Assembly (NCBI RefSeq): GCF_008705135.1
Contig: NZ_CP023694.1
Coordinates: forward strand, 1,860,001 to 1,924,000
Reading direction: 5' to 3'
Source: Streptomyces coeruleorubidus
GTDB lineage: Bacteria; Actinomycetota; Actinomycetes; Streptomycetales; Streptomycetaceae
Length of the DNA: 64,000 nt
How positions within the stretch are numbered: position 1 is the first letter of the stretch; each line of letters begins with the position of its first letter. Below, piece after piece: positions 3,806 to 21,367 of this stretch. The notes beneath the pieces were generated by a model. It was not told the origin of the DNA, did no database searches, and saw nothing but the letters and a program-made list of their open reading frames with translations. A program made the translations under genes and the position numbers.

Positions 3806-3878
3806 GCGGACGTAGCTCAGTTGGTAGAGCGCAACCTTGCCAAGGTTGAGGTCGCGAGTTCGAACCTCGTCGTCCGCT
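3806..3878 (+). tRNA. tRNA-Gly (GCC)
   Basis: A 73-nt cloverleaf. The acceptor arms GCGGACG and CGTCCGC pair fully, the D-arm is AGCTCAGTTGGTAGAGC, the anticodon loop CTTGCCAAG gives GCC, and GTTCGAACC forms the T-loop. The discriminator is T3878 and no CCA is encoded. It is the first gene of the array. Confidence 0.97.
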
Positions 3879-3916
3879 CGAAGGAAGTGGGGATCTTCCC
3901 GGTTCCCTACACTCCT

Positions 3917-3987
3917 GGTGGAGTGGCCGAGAGGCGAGGCAACGGCCTGCAAAGCCGTCTACACGGGTTCAAATCCCGTCTCCACCT
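3917..3987 (+). tRNA. tRNA-Cys (GCA)
   Basis: A 71-nt tRNA with acceptor arms GGTGGAG and CTCCACC, a short D-loop, anticodon loop CTGCAAA (anticodon GCA) and T-loop GGTTCAAATCC. CCA follows directly at 3988-3990, so the 3' end is encoded. This differs from the Gly and Val genes beside it. Confidence 0.97.
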
Positions 3988-3991
3988 CCAA

Positions 3992-4063
3992 GGACGATTA
4001 GCTCAGCGGGAGAGCGCTTCCCTGACACGGAAGAGGTCACTGGTTCAATCCCAGTATCGTCCA
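3992..4063 (+). tRNA. tRNA-Val (GAC), copy 1
   Basis: A 72-nt tRNA with acceptor arms GGACGAT/ATCGTCC, anticodon loop CTGACAC (GAC) and T-loop GGTTCAATCCC. It begins two bases after the encoded CCA of tRNA-Cys, so the two must be cut from one transcript. The body matches the next two Val copies. Confidence 0.97.
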
Positions 4064-4088
4064 CTGGATCTGCTCGAAGATCCGACCC

Positions 4089-4160
4089 GCGCGATTAGCT
4101 CAGCGGGAGAGCGCTTCCCTGACACGGAAGAGGTCACTGGTTCAATCCCAGTATCGCGCA
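4089..4160 (+). tRNA. tRNA-Val (GAC), copy 2, variant acceptor stem
   Basis: The body from the D-arm to the T-arm reads the same as copies 1 and 3, but the acceptor is GCGCGAT/ATCGCGC in place of GGACGAT/ATCGTCC. Base pairs 2-71 and 3-70 have both changed with pairing kept, so the gene should be functional. Confidence 0.97.
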
Positions 4161-4203
4161 CGCAGTGCCCATGATCCGCTGCATCCAGTGGTCATGGTCC
4201 CGA

Positions 4204-4275
4204 GGACGATTAGCTCAGCGGGAGAGCGCTTCCCTGACACGGAAGAGGTCACTGGTTCAATCCCAGTATCGTCCA
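4204..4275 (+). tRNA. tRNA-Val (GAC), copy 3
   Basis: A 72-nt tRNA that matches copy 1 over its whole length, including acceptor arms GGACGAT/ATCGTCC. It is the last gene of the array and a strong hairpin follows at 4284. Confidence 0.97.
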
Positions 4276-17707: not shown

Positions 17708-18529
17708 TCAGAAGGAGGCGAGCACGGAGCCGTCGGCGTACTTGTCCTGGATGAACTTCTTCACCTCGGGCGAGGTGAGGAGCTTCGCGAGCTTCTTCAC
17801 CCGCGGGTCGTTCTCCTGGCCCTTCTTGACGGCGAGGAAGTTGCCGTAAGGGTTGTTCTTCGGGGACTCCAGGACGAGGGCGTCCTTCGACGGCTTGAGG
17901 TCGGACTCGATGGCGTAGTTGCCGTTGACGACGGCGGCGTCCACGTCGTCGAGGGAGCGCGGCGTCTGGGCCGCCTCCAGCTCCTTGAACTTGAGCTTCT
18001 TCGGGTTCTTGGTGATGTCGGAGGGGGTCGCCTCGTTGCCGACGCCGTCCTTGAGGGTGATGAGCCCGTGGGCGGCGAGGAGCTTGAGCGCGCGGGCCTC
18101 GTTGACCGTGTCGTTGGGGACGGCGACGGTCGCACCGCTCTTCAGGTCGCCGGCCTTCTCGGCCTTGCGGGAGTAGAGGCCGAGCGGCTCCAGGTGGACC
18201 GTGACGACGGGCACGATGTCCGTGCCGTTCTTCTTGTTGTAGTCGTCGAGGTACGGCTTGTTCTGGAAGTAGTTGGCGCCGACGGAGCCGTCCTGCGTCG
18301 CGGGGTTCTGCGACGTGTAGTCGGTGAACTCCTTGACCTCCAGGTCGAGGCCCTCCTTCTTCGCCAGGTTGTCCTTGACGTAGTTGAGGATCTCGGCGTG
18401 CGGGACGGGGCTCGCGGCGACGATCAGGGGTCCGTCGGAGCCGGAGTTGCCCGCGCCGCAAGCGCTGAGCCCGAGGGTGAGGGCTCCGGCGGCGAGGACG
18501 GCGGTGGTGATCTTGGCGGTGTTACGCAC
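17708..18529 (-). CDS. metQ: D/L-methionine-binding lipoprotein of an ABC importer
   Basis: A 273-residue lipoprotein. The signal peptide (MRNTAKITTAVLAAGALTLG) ends in the lipobox LSAC with Cys24, where lipid is attached. The mature part has the NlpA/MetQ features IVAASPVPHAEILNYVK, VGANYFQNKPYLDDYN, GLYSRKAEKAGDL and TVAVPNDTVNEARALKLL. It binds methionine outside the membrane and passes it to MetI. It is the last gene of the operon, 61 bp after metI. The alternative is a lipoprotein for another sulfur compound, but the whole operon is of the methionine uptake type. Confidence 0.92.
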   Translation of the reverse strand: MRNTAKITTAVLAAGALTLGLSACGAGNSGSDGPLIVAASPVPHAEILNYVKDNLAKKEGLDLEVKEFTDYTSQNPATQDGSVGANYFQNKPYLDDYNKKNGTDIVPVVTVHLEPLGLYSRKAEKAGDLKSGATVAVPNDTVNEARALKLLAAHGLITLKDGVGNEATPSDITKNPKKLKFKELEAAQTPRSLDDVDAAVVNGNYAIESDLKPSKDALVLESPKNNPYGNFLAVKKGQENDPRVKKLAKLLTSPEVKKFIQDKYADGSVLASF

Positions 18530-18591: not shown

Positions 18592-19299
18592 TCAGGAGGC
18601 GGCTTTGAGCAGCCGCAGTTTCGGGGCGGGGCCCGAGTGGGCGCCGCGGCGGTGCAGGGAGCGGGCCGCGTAGTCGCCGGCGAACTGGATGACCGAGATG
18701 ACGACGGCGAGGATCGCGACGGTGATCCACATCATCTGGGTCTCGAAGCGCTGGTAGCCGTAGCGGATGGCGATGTCGCCGAGGCCGCCGGCGCCGACGG
18801 TGCCCGCCATCGCGGAGTAGCCGATGAGGGCGACGACCGTGGTCGTGGTGCTGGAGATCAGCGACGGCAGGGACTCGGGGACGAGGACCTTGCGGACGAC
18901 GGTCCAGGTGTTGCCGCCCATGGCCTGCACGGCCTCGACGAGTCCGTGGTCCACTTCGCGGACTGCCGTCTCGACCAGACGCGCGAAGAAGGGGATGGCG
19001 CCGACGGCGAGCGGCACGATGGCGGCCTCGCGGCCGATGGTCGTGCCGGTGATCCAGCGGGTGAAGGTCATCAGCGCGACCATCAGGATGATGAACGGCA
19101 GCGAGCGGGCGATGTTCACGATCTGCCCGATGACCTTGTTGGCGACGACGTTCTGGAGCAGCCCGCCGCGGTCGGTCAGGACCAGCAGGATCCCGAGCGG
19201 CAGTCCGCCGACGACGGCGATGAGCGTGGACCAGCCGACCATGTAGAGCGTGTCCCAACACGCCTGCTCCAGCAGGGGCTGCATTTCGGACCAGGTCAC
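18592..19299 (-). CDS. metI: Methionine ABC importer permease
   Basis: A 235-residue permease from GTG 19299 (VTWSEMQPLLEQACWDTLYM). The start overlaps the metN stop by 4 bp (GTGA) and has GGAAGG upstream. Five membrane segments are visible, beginning YMVGWSTLIAVVGGLPLGIL. The ABC-coupling (EAA) loop reads VEAVQAMGGNTWTVVRKVLVPE. AMAGTVGAGGLGDIAIRYGY is typical of MetI. Length and motifs are those of a complete protein. It pairs with MetN on the inside and MetQ on the outside. Confidence 0.93.
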   Translation of the reverse strand: MTWSEMQPLLEQACWDTLYMVGWSTLIAVVGGLPLGILLVLTDRGGLLQNVVANKVIGQIVNIARSLPFIILMVALMTFTRWITGTTIGREAAIVPLAVGAIPFFARLVETAVREVDHGLVEAVQAMGGNTWTVVRKVLVPESLPSLISSTTTTVVALIGYSAMAGTVGAGGLGDIAIRYGYQRFETQMMWITVAILAVVISVIQFAGDYAARSLHRRGAHSGPAPKLRLLKAAS

Positions 19300-20330
19300 T
19301 GGGCACCTTCCTTCACCAGTACGGACTCGTGGCCCGGGACGTCGATCTGGAGGCCCTTCTCGCGCAGGAAGCCGATCGGCACGACGTTGTCCTCGTAGCG
19401 GCCGGGCAGTTCGATGCGCATCCGGCCGACCTGGAGGCCGCCGACGGTGTCGATGGCCGCACCGAGGATCGATATGTCGATGTTGTAGGTGCGGGCGAGC
19501 TGCGAGATGACGGGCTGGGTCGCGCTCTCGCCCTGGAAGGTGACGTCGACGACGGTGCGGTCCTCGCCGGAGGCCTCGCCGTCGAGCGGGAACAGCGCGG
19601 CGGCCAGCTCGGAGCCGGGGGTGGCGAGCAGTTCGCTGACGGTGCCCGACTCGACGATGCGCCCGTTCTCCATGAGCGCGGCCGAGTCGCAGACCGACTT
19701 CACGACGTCCATCTCGTGCGTGATGAGCAGGACGGTCAGGCCGAGCTGCCGGTTCAGGTCGCGCAGCAGCGCCAGGATCGATCGGGTGGTCTCCGGGTCG
19801 AGGGCGCTGGTGGCCTCGTCGGACAGCAGCACCTTCGGGTCGCCGGCCAGGGCGCGGGCGATGCCGACGCGCTGCTTCTGGCCACCGGAGAGCTGCGCCG
19901 GGTAGGCGCCCGCCTTGTCGGCGAGGCCGACCAGGTCGAGCAACTCCAGTGCCTTGCGGGAGCGTTCCCCGCCGGACTTGCCGAGGATCTCCAGCGGCAG
20001 TTCGACGTTGTCCTGGACCGTCCGGGAGGACAGCAGGTTGAAGTGCTGGAAGACCATGCCGATCCGGCTGCGCGCCTGCCGCAGTTCCCTTCCGGCGCGT
20101 GAGCCGCGGCCGGCCAGGGCGGTGAGGTCCTGTCCGGCGACCGTCACGGTGCCGGAGGTGGGGCGCTCCAGGAGGTTGACGCAGCGGATCAGCGAGGACT
20201 TGCCGGCACCGGACTGGCCGATGACGCCGTACACCTCGCCTTCGCGGACGTGCAGGTCGACGCCGTCCAGGGCGGTGACCTCGCGGCCGCGCGAACGGTA
20301 GACCTTGGTCAGGTCCGTTGTGGTGATCAC
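19296..20330 (-). CDS. metN: Methionine ABC importer ATP-binding protein
   Basis: A 344-residue protein from GTG 20330 (VITTTDLTKVYRSRGREVTA) with GGAAA upstream. Walker A is GQSGAGKSSLIR, the signature is LSGGQKQRVGIARAL, Walker B is PKVLLSDEATSALD and the switch His lies in LLITHEMDV. After about residue 265 comes a NIL domain (VVDVTFQGESATQPVISQLA), the C-terminal methionine-sensing domain that lets methionine trans-inhibit transport. It heads the metN-metI-metQ operon, about 200 bp downstream of a short leader peptide. Confidence 0.93.
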   Translation of the reverse strand: MITTTDLTKVYRSRGREVTALDGVDLHVREGEVYGVIGQSGAGKSSLIRCVNLLERPTSGTVTVAGQDLTALAGRGSRAGRELRQARSRIGMVFQHFNLLSSRTVQDNVELPLEILGKSGGERSRKALELLDLVGLADKAGAYPAQLSGGQKQRVGIARALAGDPKVLLSDEATSALDPETTRSILALLRDLNRQLGLTVLLITHEMDVVKSVCDSAALMENGRIVESGTVSELLATPGSELAAALFPLDGEASGEDRTVVDVTFQGESATQPVISQLARTYNIDISILGAAIDTVGGLQVGRMRIELPGRYEDNVVPIGFLREKGLQIDVPGHESVLVKEGAQ

Positions 20331-20537
20331 GTGGGTTTCCGTCACTGTCGAGTGCGCGGGCGTGGGTGTGCCCGGGCACAGGTGCATTCGTTCAGGGACG
20401 CGACACGGTTCTCGCTGGGGCGGGGAACCGGAGAGAACATGTGCGCGGTCGGCTTGGTGTCACGCACGGCTCAGGGCGTGCGGACATGCCGCGGTCTCGC
20501 TTCGGGGCGCGAGCTCAGGGGGTGGTGCGGGGGCCCT
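20331..20537 (-). promoter_or_regulatory. Untranslated leader between the Cys/Met peptide and metN
   Basis: About 207 bp with no gene. It holds several GC-rich hairpins, such as the self-complementary GTGCCCGGGCAC, that could form alternative structures depending on where a ribosome stalls on the upstream peptide. I did not resolve a definite terminator/antiterminator pair. The regulatory role is inferred from position. Confidence 0.4.
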
Positions 20538-20624
20538 CTAGAAGGCGCACATTCGACACATACAACGAGCACCGGGCGTCATGGTCGCCTCGGTCGCGGG
20601 AATGCGGTCGCTCGTCGTGGTCAT
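20538..20624 (-). CDS. Cys/Met-tailed leader peptide upstream of metNIQ
   Basis: A 28-residue frame from ATG 20624 (MTTTSDRIPATEATMTPGAR) ends CMCRMCAF followed by TAG. Three Cys and two Met codons fall within six codons at the end of the frame, just before the untranslated leader of a methionine importer operon. This is the layout of a ribosome-mediated attenuator: low charged tRNA-Cys or tRNA-Met would stall ribosomes near the stop and change mRNA folding. No clear Shine-Dalgarno is present. TTTACT 7-12 bp before the ATG suggests a leaderless start. The amino-acid pattern is seen directly and regulation is inferred. Confidence 0.65.
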   Translation of the reverse strand: MTTTSDRIPATEATMTPGARCMCRMCAF

Positions 20625-20663
20625 GCCGTCAGTAAAACACGCGTACGGTCCTGACCGGCCGCT

Positions 20664-20684
20664 GCTGTCCGGATGCTGGACAGC
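20664..20684. promoter_or_regulatory. Inverted repeat, candidate operator or terminator
   Basis: GCTGTCC (20664-20670) and GGACAGC (20678-20684) are perfect arms 7 bp apart, and a further GGACAG follows nearby. It lies downstream of the HAD gene stop (20717) and about 40 bp upstream of the leader peptide. It could end the HAD transcript or bind a regulator of the methionine operon. Confidence 0.4.
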
Positions 20685-20716
20685 GGTGGACAGGGTCCGG
20701 ACACGACCGGCTCCCG

Positions 20717-21367
20717 TCAGCCTCGCAGGGAGATCTCCACACCCCGCTCGGTGACCAGTGCGGACAAGGCCGACAGGTTCTCGACCACCAGATCGGCCTG
20801 GAGCTCGTCGGCCCGGTGGGTTGTGGCCAACGCCACGGTGGTCATGCCGGCGGCCCGGCCGGCCGTCAGACCCGCGGGAGCGTCCTCGAAGACGACGCAC
20901 CGGGCGGGGTCGACGCCGAGGGTGCGGGCGGCGAGCAGGTAGGGCTCGGGGTCCGGCTTGCCGCGGGTGATGTCGTCGGCGGCGACGAGCGTCTTGGGCA
21001 GGATGCCGACGGCGTCGAGCCGGGCCTCGGCCAGCCGTCGGGTGGCGGAGGTGACGACGGCCCAGCGCTCGGCGGGCAGGGCGTCGAGGAAGGCGCGGGT
21101 CCCCGGCAGCAGGTGCACACCGCCGTTGGGCACGTCCTCCACCTCGAGGTCCTCGATCCGCGCGACGGCCTCCGGCACGACGTCGGCGGGCAGCAGGTCG
21201 GCGGCTATCTCGGCGGCCGGCCGGCCGTGCAGCTCGACCCGGGCGAACTCCTCGGCCGTGATCCCGTACTCCGTGGCCCACCGCGTCCAGCAGCGGTCCA
21301 CCGAGGCGAGGGAGGAGACCAGGGTTCCGTCGTTGTCGAACAGCAGGGCGTGCGCGTGGATCTTCAT
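20717..21367 (-). CDS. HAD-family sugar-phosphate phosphatase-like protein
   Basis: A 216-residue haloacid-dehalogenase hydrolase from ATG 21367 (MKIHAHALLFDNDGTLVSS). Motif I is FDNDGTL with the Asp nucleophile and general acid, motif II is VVTSATRR, the motif III Lys lies in RGKPDPEPYL, and motif IV is VVFEDAPAGLTAG. The helical cap between residues 15 and 80 and the EDAPAG motif place it with beta-phosphoglucomutase or 2-deoxyglucose/glycerol-phosphate phosphatases. GAGG lies just upstream of the start. It is probably monocistronic. Confidence 0.87.
   Translation of the reverse strand: MKIHAHALLFDNDGTLVSSLASVDRCWTRWATEYGITAEEFARVELHGRPAAEIAADLLPADVVPEAVARIEDLEVEDVPNGGVHLLPGTRAFLDALPAERWAVVTSATRRLAEARLDAVGILPKTLVAADDITRGKPDPEPYLLAARTLGVDPARCVVFEDAPAGLTAGRAAGMTTVALATTHRADELQADLVVENLSALSALVTERGVEISLRG

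Follow-up and report, generated by a model that had tools for sequence, protein, structure and literature searches.

A conserved Met/Cys-tailed leader ORF with an internal RNA hairpin upstream of metNIQ in Streptomyces and related genera

Introduction

Does a short reading frame rich in sulfur amino acids control the methionine importer operon metNIQ of Streptomyces, and if so, through which step? We addressed this in a 64,000-nucleotide stretch of the Streptomyces coeruleorubidus genome (contig NZ_CP023694.1, positions 1,860,001 to 1,924,000), hereafter the window, whose own numbering is used throughout. A sequence-only reading of this DNA had proposed that a 28-residue frame with a Cys/Met tail is a peptide attenuator of metNIQ. 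Both the peptide and the attenuator idea are already known: metL of Streptomyces lividans TK24 (SLIV_29928), described in 2021 (PMC8079986), is a leaderless ORF before metNIQ that encodes MSTTSDRTPATEATTTPGARCMCRRMCAF and was proposed as an attenuator, with termination called 'unclear'. The passages on metL in that paper name its methionines and threonines, report hairpins in the region without a typical Rho-independent terminator, and do not compare metL with other species. According to the section of PMC1262725 on methionine operons of Actinobacteria, these operons are not preceded by a conserved RNA structure, and a search of the open-licence PMC literature by title and abstract start found no further papers on a metNIQ leader. 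New here are an RNA hairpin, a CGA-AUG core, its spacing to the stop codon, the spread of the leader, and relatives in Microbacterium and in family f17.

The leader ORF and its operon

The minus-strand frame running from 20624 to 20538 translates as MTTTSDRIPATEATMTPGARCMCRMCAF followed by a stop codon, and five of the six codons of its C-M-C-R-M-C tail specify sulfur amino acids before A-F-TAG, exactly as the sequence-only reading had described. This ending is unique in the window: of 1278 frames (stop-ended, at least 10 codons), metL alone has at least five Cys/Met among its last eight residues, and one other frame has four. The leader RNA, estimated earlier at about 200 bp, measures 207 nt from the metL stop to the metN GTG, and the operon follows in the order metN, metI, metQ, with the domains given below.

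20631 to 20636, minus strand: TTTACT, -10-like box (leaderless promoter), spanning -12 to -7 relative to the ATG
20538 to 20624, minus strand: leader ORF of 28 codons, ortholog of S. lividans metL
20338 to 20343, minus strand: GACGGA, conserved Shine-Dalgarno-like stretch of metN
19296 to 20330, minus strand: metN, with ABC_tran and NIL domains and a GTG start at 20330-20328
18592 to 19299 (frame as scanned), minus strand: metI, with a BPD_transp_1 domain
17708 to 18529, minus strand: metQ, with a Lipoprotein_9 domain

The metN product scores 386 bits against TIGR02314, under the cut-off of 499.7. The metL frame stays open for about 250 codons further upstream, and alternative starts are possible. 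We take the ATG at 20624 as the start on two grounds: a conserved TTTACT box lies 7-12 nt before it, and the metL passages of PMC8079986 describe the S. lividans transcript as leaderless. Each position of TTTACT is at least 97.5% conserved in 90 Streptomyces leaders and invariant in 38 diverse leaders; a generic TTGACA/TATAAT promoter scan gave no match. The window leader resembles S. lividans metL, as that paper presents it (PMC8079986), in its operon, its position and a near-identical peptide, and two of our loci (L049 and L050) encode MSTTSDRTPATEATTTPGARCMCRRMCAF letter for letter. Just ahead of metL, and likewise on the minus strand, lies a HAD-family phosphatase gene (20720-21367), and five tRNA genes are clustered at 3806-4275 of the window.

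Distribution and link to metN

The 331-nt leader DNA matches 192 of 199 Streptomyces genomes (E <= 0.001). We read 90 of the 192, a non-random set of the 30 best matches and 60 picked down the list, and the Cys/Met tail is present in every one, including a leader (L071) that escaped our Cys filter. A covariance model built from 38 diverse leaders finds a single match in its own genome (E 6e-45; next best E 0.37) and has matches in 243 of the 297 family genomes, spread over 14 of 17 genera; a second model, derived from alignment A2, contained no base pairs and was left unused. Sixty genomes chosen for divergence returned 56 loci for reading, 53 of which carry metN downstream, the exceptions being two weak partial matches (L127 and L154) and a locus that is cut short (L138). 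Extended to the class, the covariance model has hits (E <= 0.01) in 32 of 296 genomes, of which 28 are Streptomyces; the four others comprise leaders in L169 and L171 and no leader in G696 and G610.

The complementary set consists of 16 leader-negative genomes, nine drawn from the 54 family genomes negative by the model and seven negative by DNA search only. Thirteen of them also lack MetN (E <= 1e-60). In two leader-negative genomes a contig end truncates metN (L331, L332), and G202, missed by the covariance model, carries MFTTAHISGTAATATGCRCMCRSCQMCRMCGC followed by a stop codon before metN, which was found by inspecting the region upstream of metN and not by leader sequence.

Translation of the ORF and constraint on its RNA

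Translation was assessed with a frame-blind test, which takes the first ATG that follows a -10-like box, measures its distance to a CG[AC]ATG core near GAGG and makes no use of stops or frame. It located 139 of 143 leaders (the four not located are L068, L126, L128 and L147), and the ATG-to-core distance, which takes ten values from 66 to 99 nt, is divisible by three in all 139. The distances from the core to P3, a hairpin beyond the stop codon, fall into the three frame classes as 70, 33 and 30 of 133. Because the first distance keeps frame and the second does not, we conclude that the leader ORF is translated. Gap runs inside the aligned ORFs are multiples of three in 297 of 297 cases, a count that is partly built in since the ORFs were cut at an in-frame stop. 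Together with the parallel absence of leader and MetN, the frame-blind result bears out the claim of a Cys/Met-tailed leader upstream of metNIQ, and we are confident that a translated leader is tied to this operon.

The sequence-only reading expected the tail to be conserved while the rest of the peptide drifts, which fails for the N-terminal part: its nucleotides are as frozen as those of the tail. At fourfold sites across 90 genomes, mean entropy is 0.09 at 14 leader sites versus 0.69 at 64 metN sites (p = 4e-7), with residue conservation required at 90% for the leader and 95% for metN. RNAalifold and covariation support a hairpin within the ORF, made of P1 and P2, with the separate P3 following the stop codon.

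20610 to 20618, minus strand: 5' strand of P1, ACGACGAGC, codons 3-5
20562 to 20570, minus strand: 3' strand of P1, GCUCGUUGU, codons 19-21
20586 to 20594, minus strand: 5' strand of P2, ACCGaGGCG, codons 11-13
20571 to 20578, minus strand: 3' strand of P2, CGCCCGGU, within codons 16-18
20496 to 20513, minus strand: P3 hairpin, CUCGC-GCCCCGAA-GCGAG, after the stop codon

In a 58-sequence alignment, 86% of P1/P2 cells pair, and 40 cells show a double change against 12.2 (sd 2.7) after shuffling, a level reached by 0 of 500 shuffles; slid controls give 6 to 16, counted over 642 to 926 cells versus 983 in register. Counted by pair, seven P1/P2 pairs carry a double change versus 3.9 shuffled (attained in 10 of 500 shuffles), and seven is the count in one slid version too. 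A typical P1 covariation, between genera, is GAGC/GCUC versus GAAC/GUUC. The loop of P2 holds the variable codons 14-15. This in-ORF hairpin is the likely reason why synonymous sites are nearly frozen and explains why the N-terminal part is fixed at the nucleotide level; the conserved N-terminal residues are thus likely, for the most part, a reflection of P1/P2 pairing.

P3 begins 25 nt after the metL stop, and its stem and 8-nt loop are nearly invariant over several genera. It is seen in most leaders shown, was not found in L106, L107, L112, L125 and L126, carries one compensated stem change (L019), and occurs also in L334/L335 of another family. A 4-bp GGGC::GCCC contact of P3 with the GAGGGCC stretch after the stop codon is possible.

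The Arg-Met core and its CGA codon

The core of the tail is the following triplet of codons.

20547 to 20555, minus strand: core CGA-ATG-TGC (Arg-Met-Cys), with three residues after Arg-Met and then the stop

The tail as a whole is conserved in the 90 Streptomyces leaders, as predicted, and single Cys and Met positions within it vary: the last 11 residues hold one to five Cys codons and one to four Met codons. Cys and Met do not stand on the same footing: in the tail, only the Arg and Met of the final Arg-Met pair persist in every leader, and the residue next to them is Cys in 121 of 139 leaders and Arg in 18. Between the last Arg-Met and the stop lie three residues in 132 of 139 leaders and two in the other seven. 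All 58 leaders of a diverse set share the hexamer CGAATG, and CGA encodes the Arg of the last Arg-Met in 139 of 139. Four further leaders (L147, L117, L122 and L128) fell outside this count because the script required a standard -10 box; read by hand, all four have three residues after Arg-Met, two have CGA and two (L117 and L122, two genomes of one genus) have CGC, which brings CGA to 141 of 143. CGA makes up only 44 of 1276 Arg codons (3%) in the long GC3-rich frames of the window. This codon is decoded slowly via inosine wobble.

The same core recurs in Microbacterium, where a leader ORF of leaderless appearance, like MTTNARPLSAQEANGTAGMMMPGRVGMCCRMC closed by one of R, H, S or C and a stop (end MCCRMC plus that residue), precedes a winged-helix (Trans_reg_C) regulator. 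Loci of this type were found by a protein profile (L323-L329) and by a DNA pattern (L204, L224, L240, L271 and L285). The A3 peptide profile selects no codon; the DNA pattern contains CGA, so its five loci do not test that codon. Each of the seven profile-found loci reads CGA ATG TGY and ends two residues beyond Arg-Met, and the PRGFALYVG motif of the regulator is found at each of them as well. The uncharacterised Trans_reg_C regulator, with an N-terminal part of no recognised kind, is present in the ten Microbacterium-type loci checked (all but L271 and L285); a truncated form gave no Pfam match, and the full protein matched Trans_reg_C. Across 394 class genomes the A3 profile matched 212 at E <= 0.5, and the eight non-Streptomyces places read comprise seven Microbacterium-type leaders and L330, which is not a leader; weaker matches were treated as noise. 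The DNA pattern, TGYCGAATGTGYTGYTRA, occurs in at least 120 stretches of the genome contigs. Among the matches listed, five are leader-like, all of the Microbacterium type (L224 and L171 being one locus), and the remaining stretches look like chance.

The output step

No intrinsic terminator with a U-run was found in 20250-20760, which is why classical attenuation is not the natural reading, and no competing conserved fold (a mutually exclusive antiterminator) was established in foldings of the leader. A candidate partner for the tail lies next to the metN ribosome-binding site.

20346 to 20357, minus strand: GCGCACUCGACA, RBS-side block of a candidate sequestering helix, 12 Watson-Crick pairs with the tail UGUCGA(AU)GUGCGC at 20558-20545

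Twelve pairs are reached in 5 of 20000 shuffles, for blocks that were chosen after the fact. Pairing in register compared with slid registers is 93.2% versus 18-56% in Streptomyces and 73.5% versus 25-48% in divergent loci, in a test that used 135 of 139 loci and left out four without a CGAN anchor. Double changes are absent in Streptomyces; in divergent loci they number 10 versus 7.6 (49 of 300 shuffles reach this), and the pooled count is 13 versus 6.6 (1 of 300 shuffles), yet slid registers range from 3 to 19. Duplex energies show a modest excess over shuffles in Streptomyces (mean z -1.3) and none in the rest (mean z -0.13), and the duplex beats all decoy windows in 54 of 90 Streptomyces and 12 of 49 other loci. 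The pairing is not supported in Kitasatospora-like genera. For these, RNAalifold suggested a helix between the tail and the start codon, which we rejected on duplex energies no better than those of shuffles.

Pairing of the tail with GCGCACUCGACA is, in sum, a candidate restricted to Streptomyces and close genera, and it cannot explain the core, because the same CGA-ATG-TGY tail stands before an unrelated regulator in Microbacterium. A translational output through tail pairing may exist, although we lean slightly against it.

Proposed mechanism and alternatives

By analogy, the best reading of metL is that of a leaderless translational attenuator resembling the polycysteine ORFs of mycobacteria, and we give this reading an even chance. 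The same balance applies to its central proposition, that the leaderless translated ORF couples ribosome progress over the Met/Cys tail to metNIQ expression. Transcription would start at the ATG, as the metL passages of PMC8079986 report for S. lividans and as the conserved -10 box suggests here. A ribosome would load at the 5' end and open the P1/P2 hairpin, whose existence covariation supports. With Met- (and Cys-) tRNA plentiful, it would pass the CGA-AUG-UGY core, reach the stop and leave, and in Streptomyces the freed tail RNA would pair with GCGCACUCGACA beside the metN Shine-Dalgarno stretch and keep metN initiation low. With methionine scarce, the ribosome would wait at the core, perhaps with its P site on CGA and its A site on AUG; it would then cover the tail, leaving the metN site open and allowing MetNIQ to be made.

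Sensing of Met/Cys-tRNA by metL is, in our estimate, somewhat more likely than not. We judge methionine to be the main signal, because Arg and Met are never lost from the tail and Met is what the importer handles; the Cys codons are probably a second input. Control is judged to act at translation and not at transcription termination. P3 and the GAGGGCC stretch after the stop are conserved and have no place in the translational-attenuator model. If the model is true, the ribosome gauges methionine in a genome where the Streptomyces-metK and -metH RNA motifs occur too, and regulation is what preserves one particular codon, CGA, across genera.

Transcription attenuation without a U-tract is an unlikely but serious alternative. 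Here, stalling or release at the tail would decide whether polymerase stops, in a Rho-dependent manner or at P3, within the 207-nt leader. The conservation of P3 and its start 25 nt past the stop codon fit this scheme, as do the S. lividans hairpins lacking a typical Rho-independent terminator (metL passages of PMC8079986) and a role for Rho proposed, in the part of PMC1262725 on mycobacterial cys leaders, for those genes. No terminator-like site was found, however; P3 is absent from some genera and has no U-run, and its nearly invariant loop would be odd for a mere terminator.

We consider it improbable that the nascent chain itself acts, with Arg-Met-Cys-x-x in the exit tunnel stalling the ribosome at or near the stop, perhaps in response to a metabolite, SAM for example. 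An invariant Arg-Met with near-constant spacing to the stop, and recurrence of the module before an unrelated gene in Microbacterium, would suit such an arrest peptide, but the Arg is fixed as a codon (CGA), a constraint that a peptide effect would not require, the residues right before the stop vary, and a supply sensor accounts better for the repeated Cys/Met codons.

A metabolite-binding, riboswitch-like RNA that overlaps an ORF by chance would account for the strong nucleotide constraint, the P1/P2 covariation and the nearly invariant P3 loop; it is very improbable given that ATG and core stay in frame in all 139 located leaders, that the stop is nearly fixed in place, and that Rfam gave nothing at gathering score for the leader, only three sub-threshold hits with E from 1 to 4.4 in a search to E 5. 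That metL encodes a small functional protein translated with the operon, such as a thiol or metal binder, agrees with the conserved Cys-rich end and is scarcely credible in view of the Cys-to-Arg changes, the N-terminal residues that track RNA pairing, the insertions that alter length, and the lack of any NCBIfam family matching the peptide.

Relation to known leader elements

The translational-attenuator reading of metL draws on short leaderless polycysteine ORFs of mycobacteria (Canestrari et al. 2020, as cited in passages of PMC9031893 and PMC13236596), which exert translational control of the genes that follow. Both are leaderless short ORFs with sulfur-amino-acid codons; the mycobacterial ORFs have contiguous Cys codons and precede cysteine genes, whereas metL has mixed Met/Cys codons, an invariant Arg-Met, a hairpin inside the ORF and a methionine importer downstream. 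We do not assign metL to the polycysteine attenuators, because contiguous Cys codons are not its conserved feature.

Trp-type attenuators of Streptomyces and Corynebacterium, as outlined in the corresponding part of PMC1262725, have in common with metL a leader peptide with regulatory codons and hairpins, and differ from it in that no intrinsic terminator was found in the metL leader. The metL leader does contain codons of the regulated amino acid, if methionine is taken as that amino acid from the nature of the operon. In the LEU element of actinobacterial leuA, the regulatory codons may base-pair around the Shine-Dalgarno stretch of the gene under control (LEU passage of PMC1262725). The metL tail would be similar if its candidate pairing with the metN initiation region holds, and it is unlike the LEU element as presented there, which has Leu codons and a pseudoknot. 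Kinship with the Streptomyces-metK and -metH RNAs (RF03063 and RF03076) was considered and rejected, as both lie elsewhere in the genome without a similar leader ORF. The cited papers describe few cases in high-GC Actinobacteria of codon-based sensing that dispenses with a terminator layout of the classical type.

Relatives outside the family

MetN (E <= 1e-80) is present in 26 of 50 genomes picked from other families, 23 of the 26 in f17. A leader-like ORF precedes metN in 12 of these 26 loci, the other 14 showing none that could be counted. Two loci of one genus in another family (L334 and L335) have the same tail, GAGGGCCC, together with P3, upstream of metN. Six f17 metN loci from three genera carry a Met-rich ORF, such as VNVAHGIDMTPQGRVMCRGTRMCGTARMCAMGGMPSMR or RMCAMGGMPSMR, each ending at a stop codon, with mostly CGC as the Arg codon; L342, L344, L350 and L352 hold looser versions of the leader.

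We tentatively suggest, as a speculative extension, that CGA-AUG-UGY near the stop of a leaderless ORF with its own hairpin could be a portable actinobacterial stall module. Slow CGA in the P site might render Met-tRNA selection rate-limiting and so turn a single Met codon into a methionine gauge, an idea we hold just as loosely. Equally conjectural is the range of such a module, which would sit before metNIQ in Streptomycetaceae and one f17 genus and before the unrelated winged-helix regulator in Microbacterium.

In f17, another conserved small ORF was observed between the Met/Cys leader and metN. It ends in (V/I)LRR(L/I)(S/T)HLPF(P/H)PGTR and a stop, and is found in L336-L343, L345, L350 and L352, of which L343 and L345 have no visible Met/Cys leader. 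A variant, MIFVLHLLSHAPYPPG followed by S or T, then C and a stop, is present in L334 (identical to L169) and L335. The pattern occurs in 14 of 359 loci, 0 of them from Streptomyces, and its Pro-Gly-rich end looks like that of an arrest peptide.
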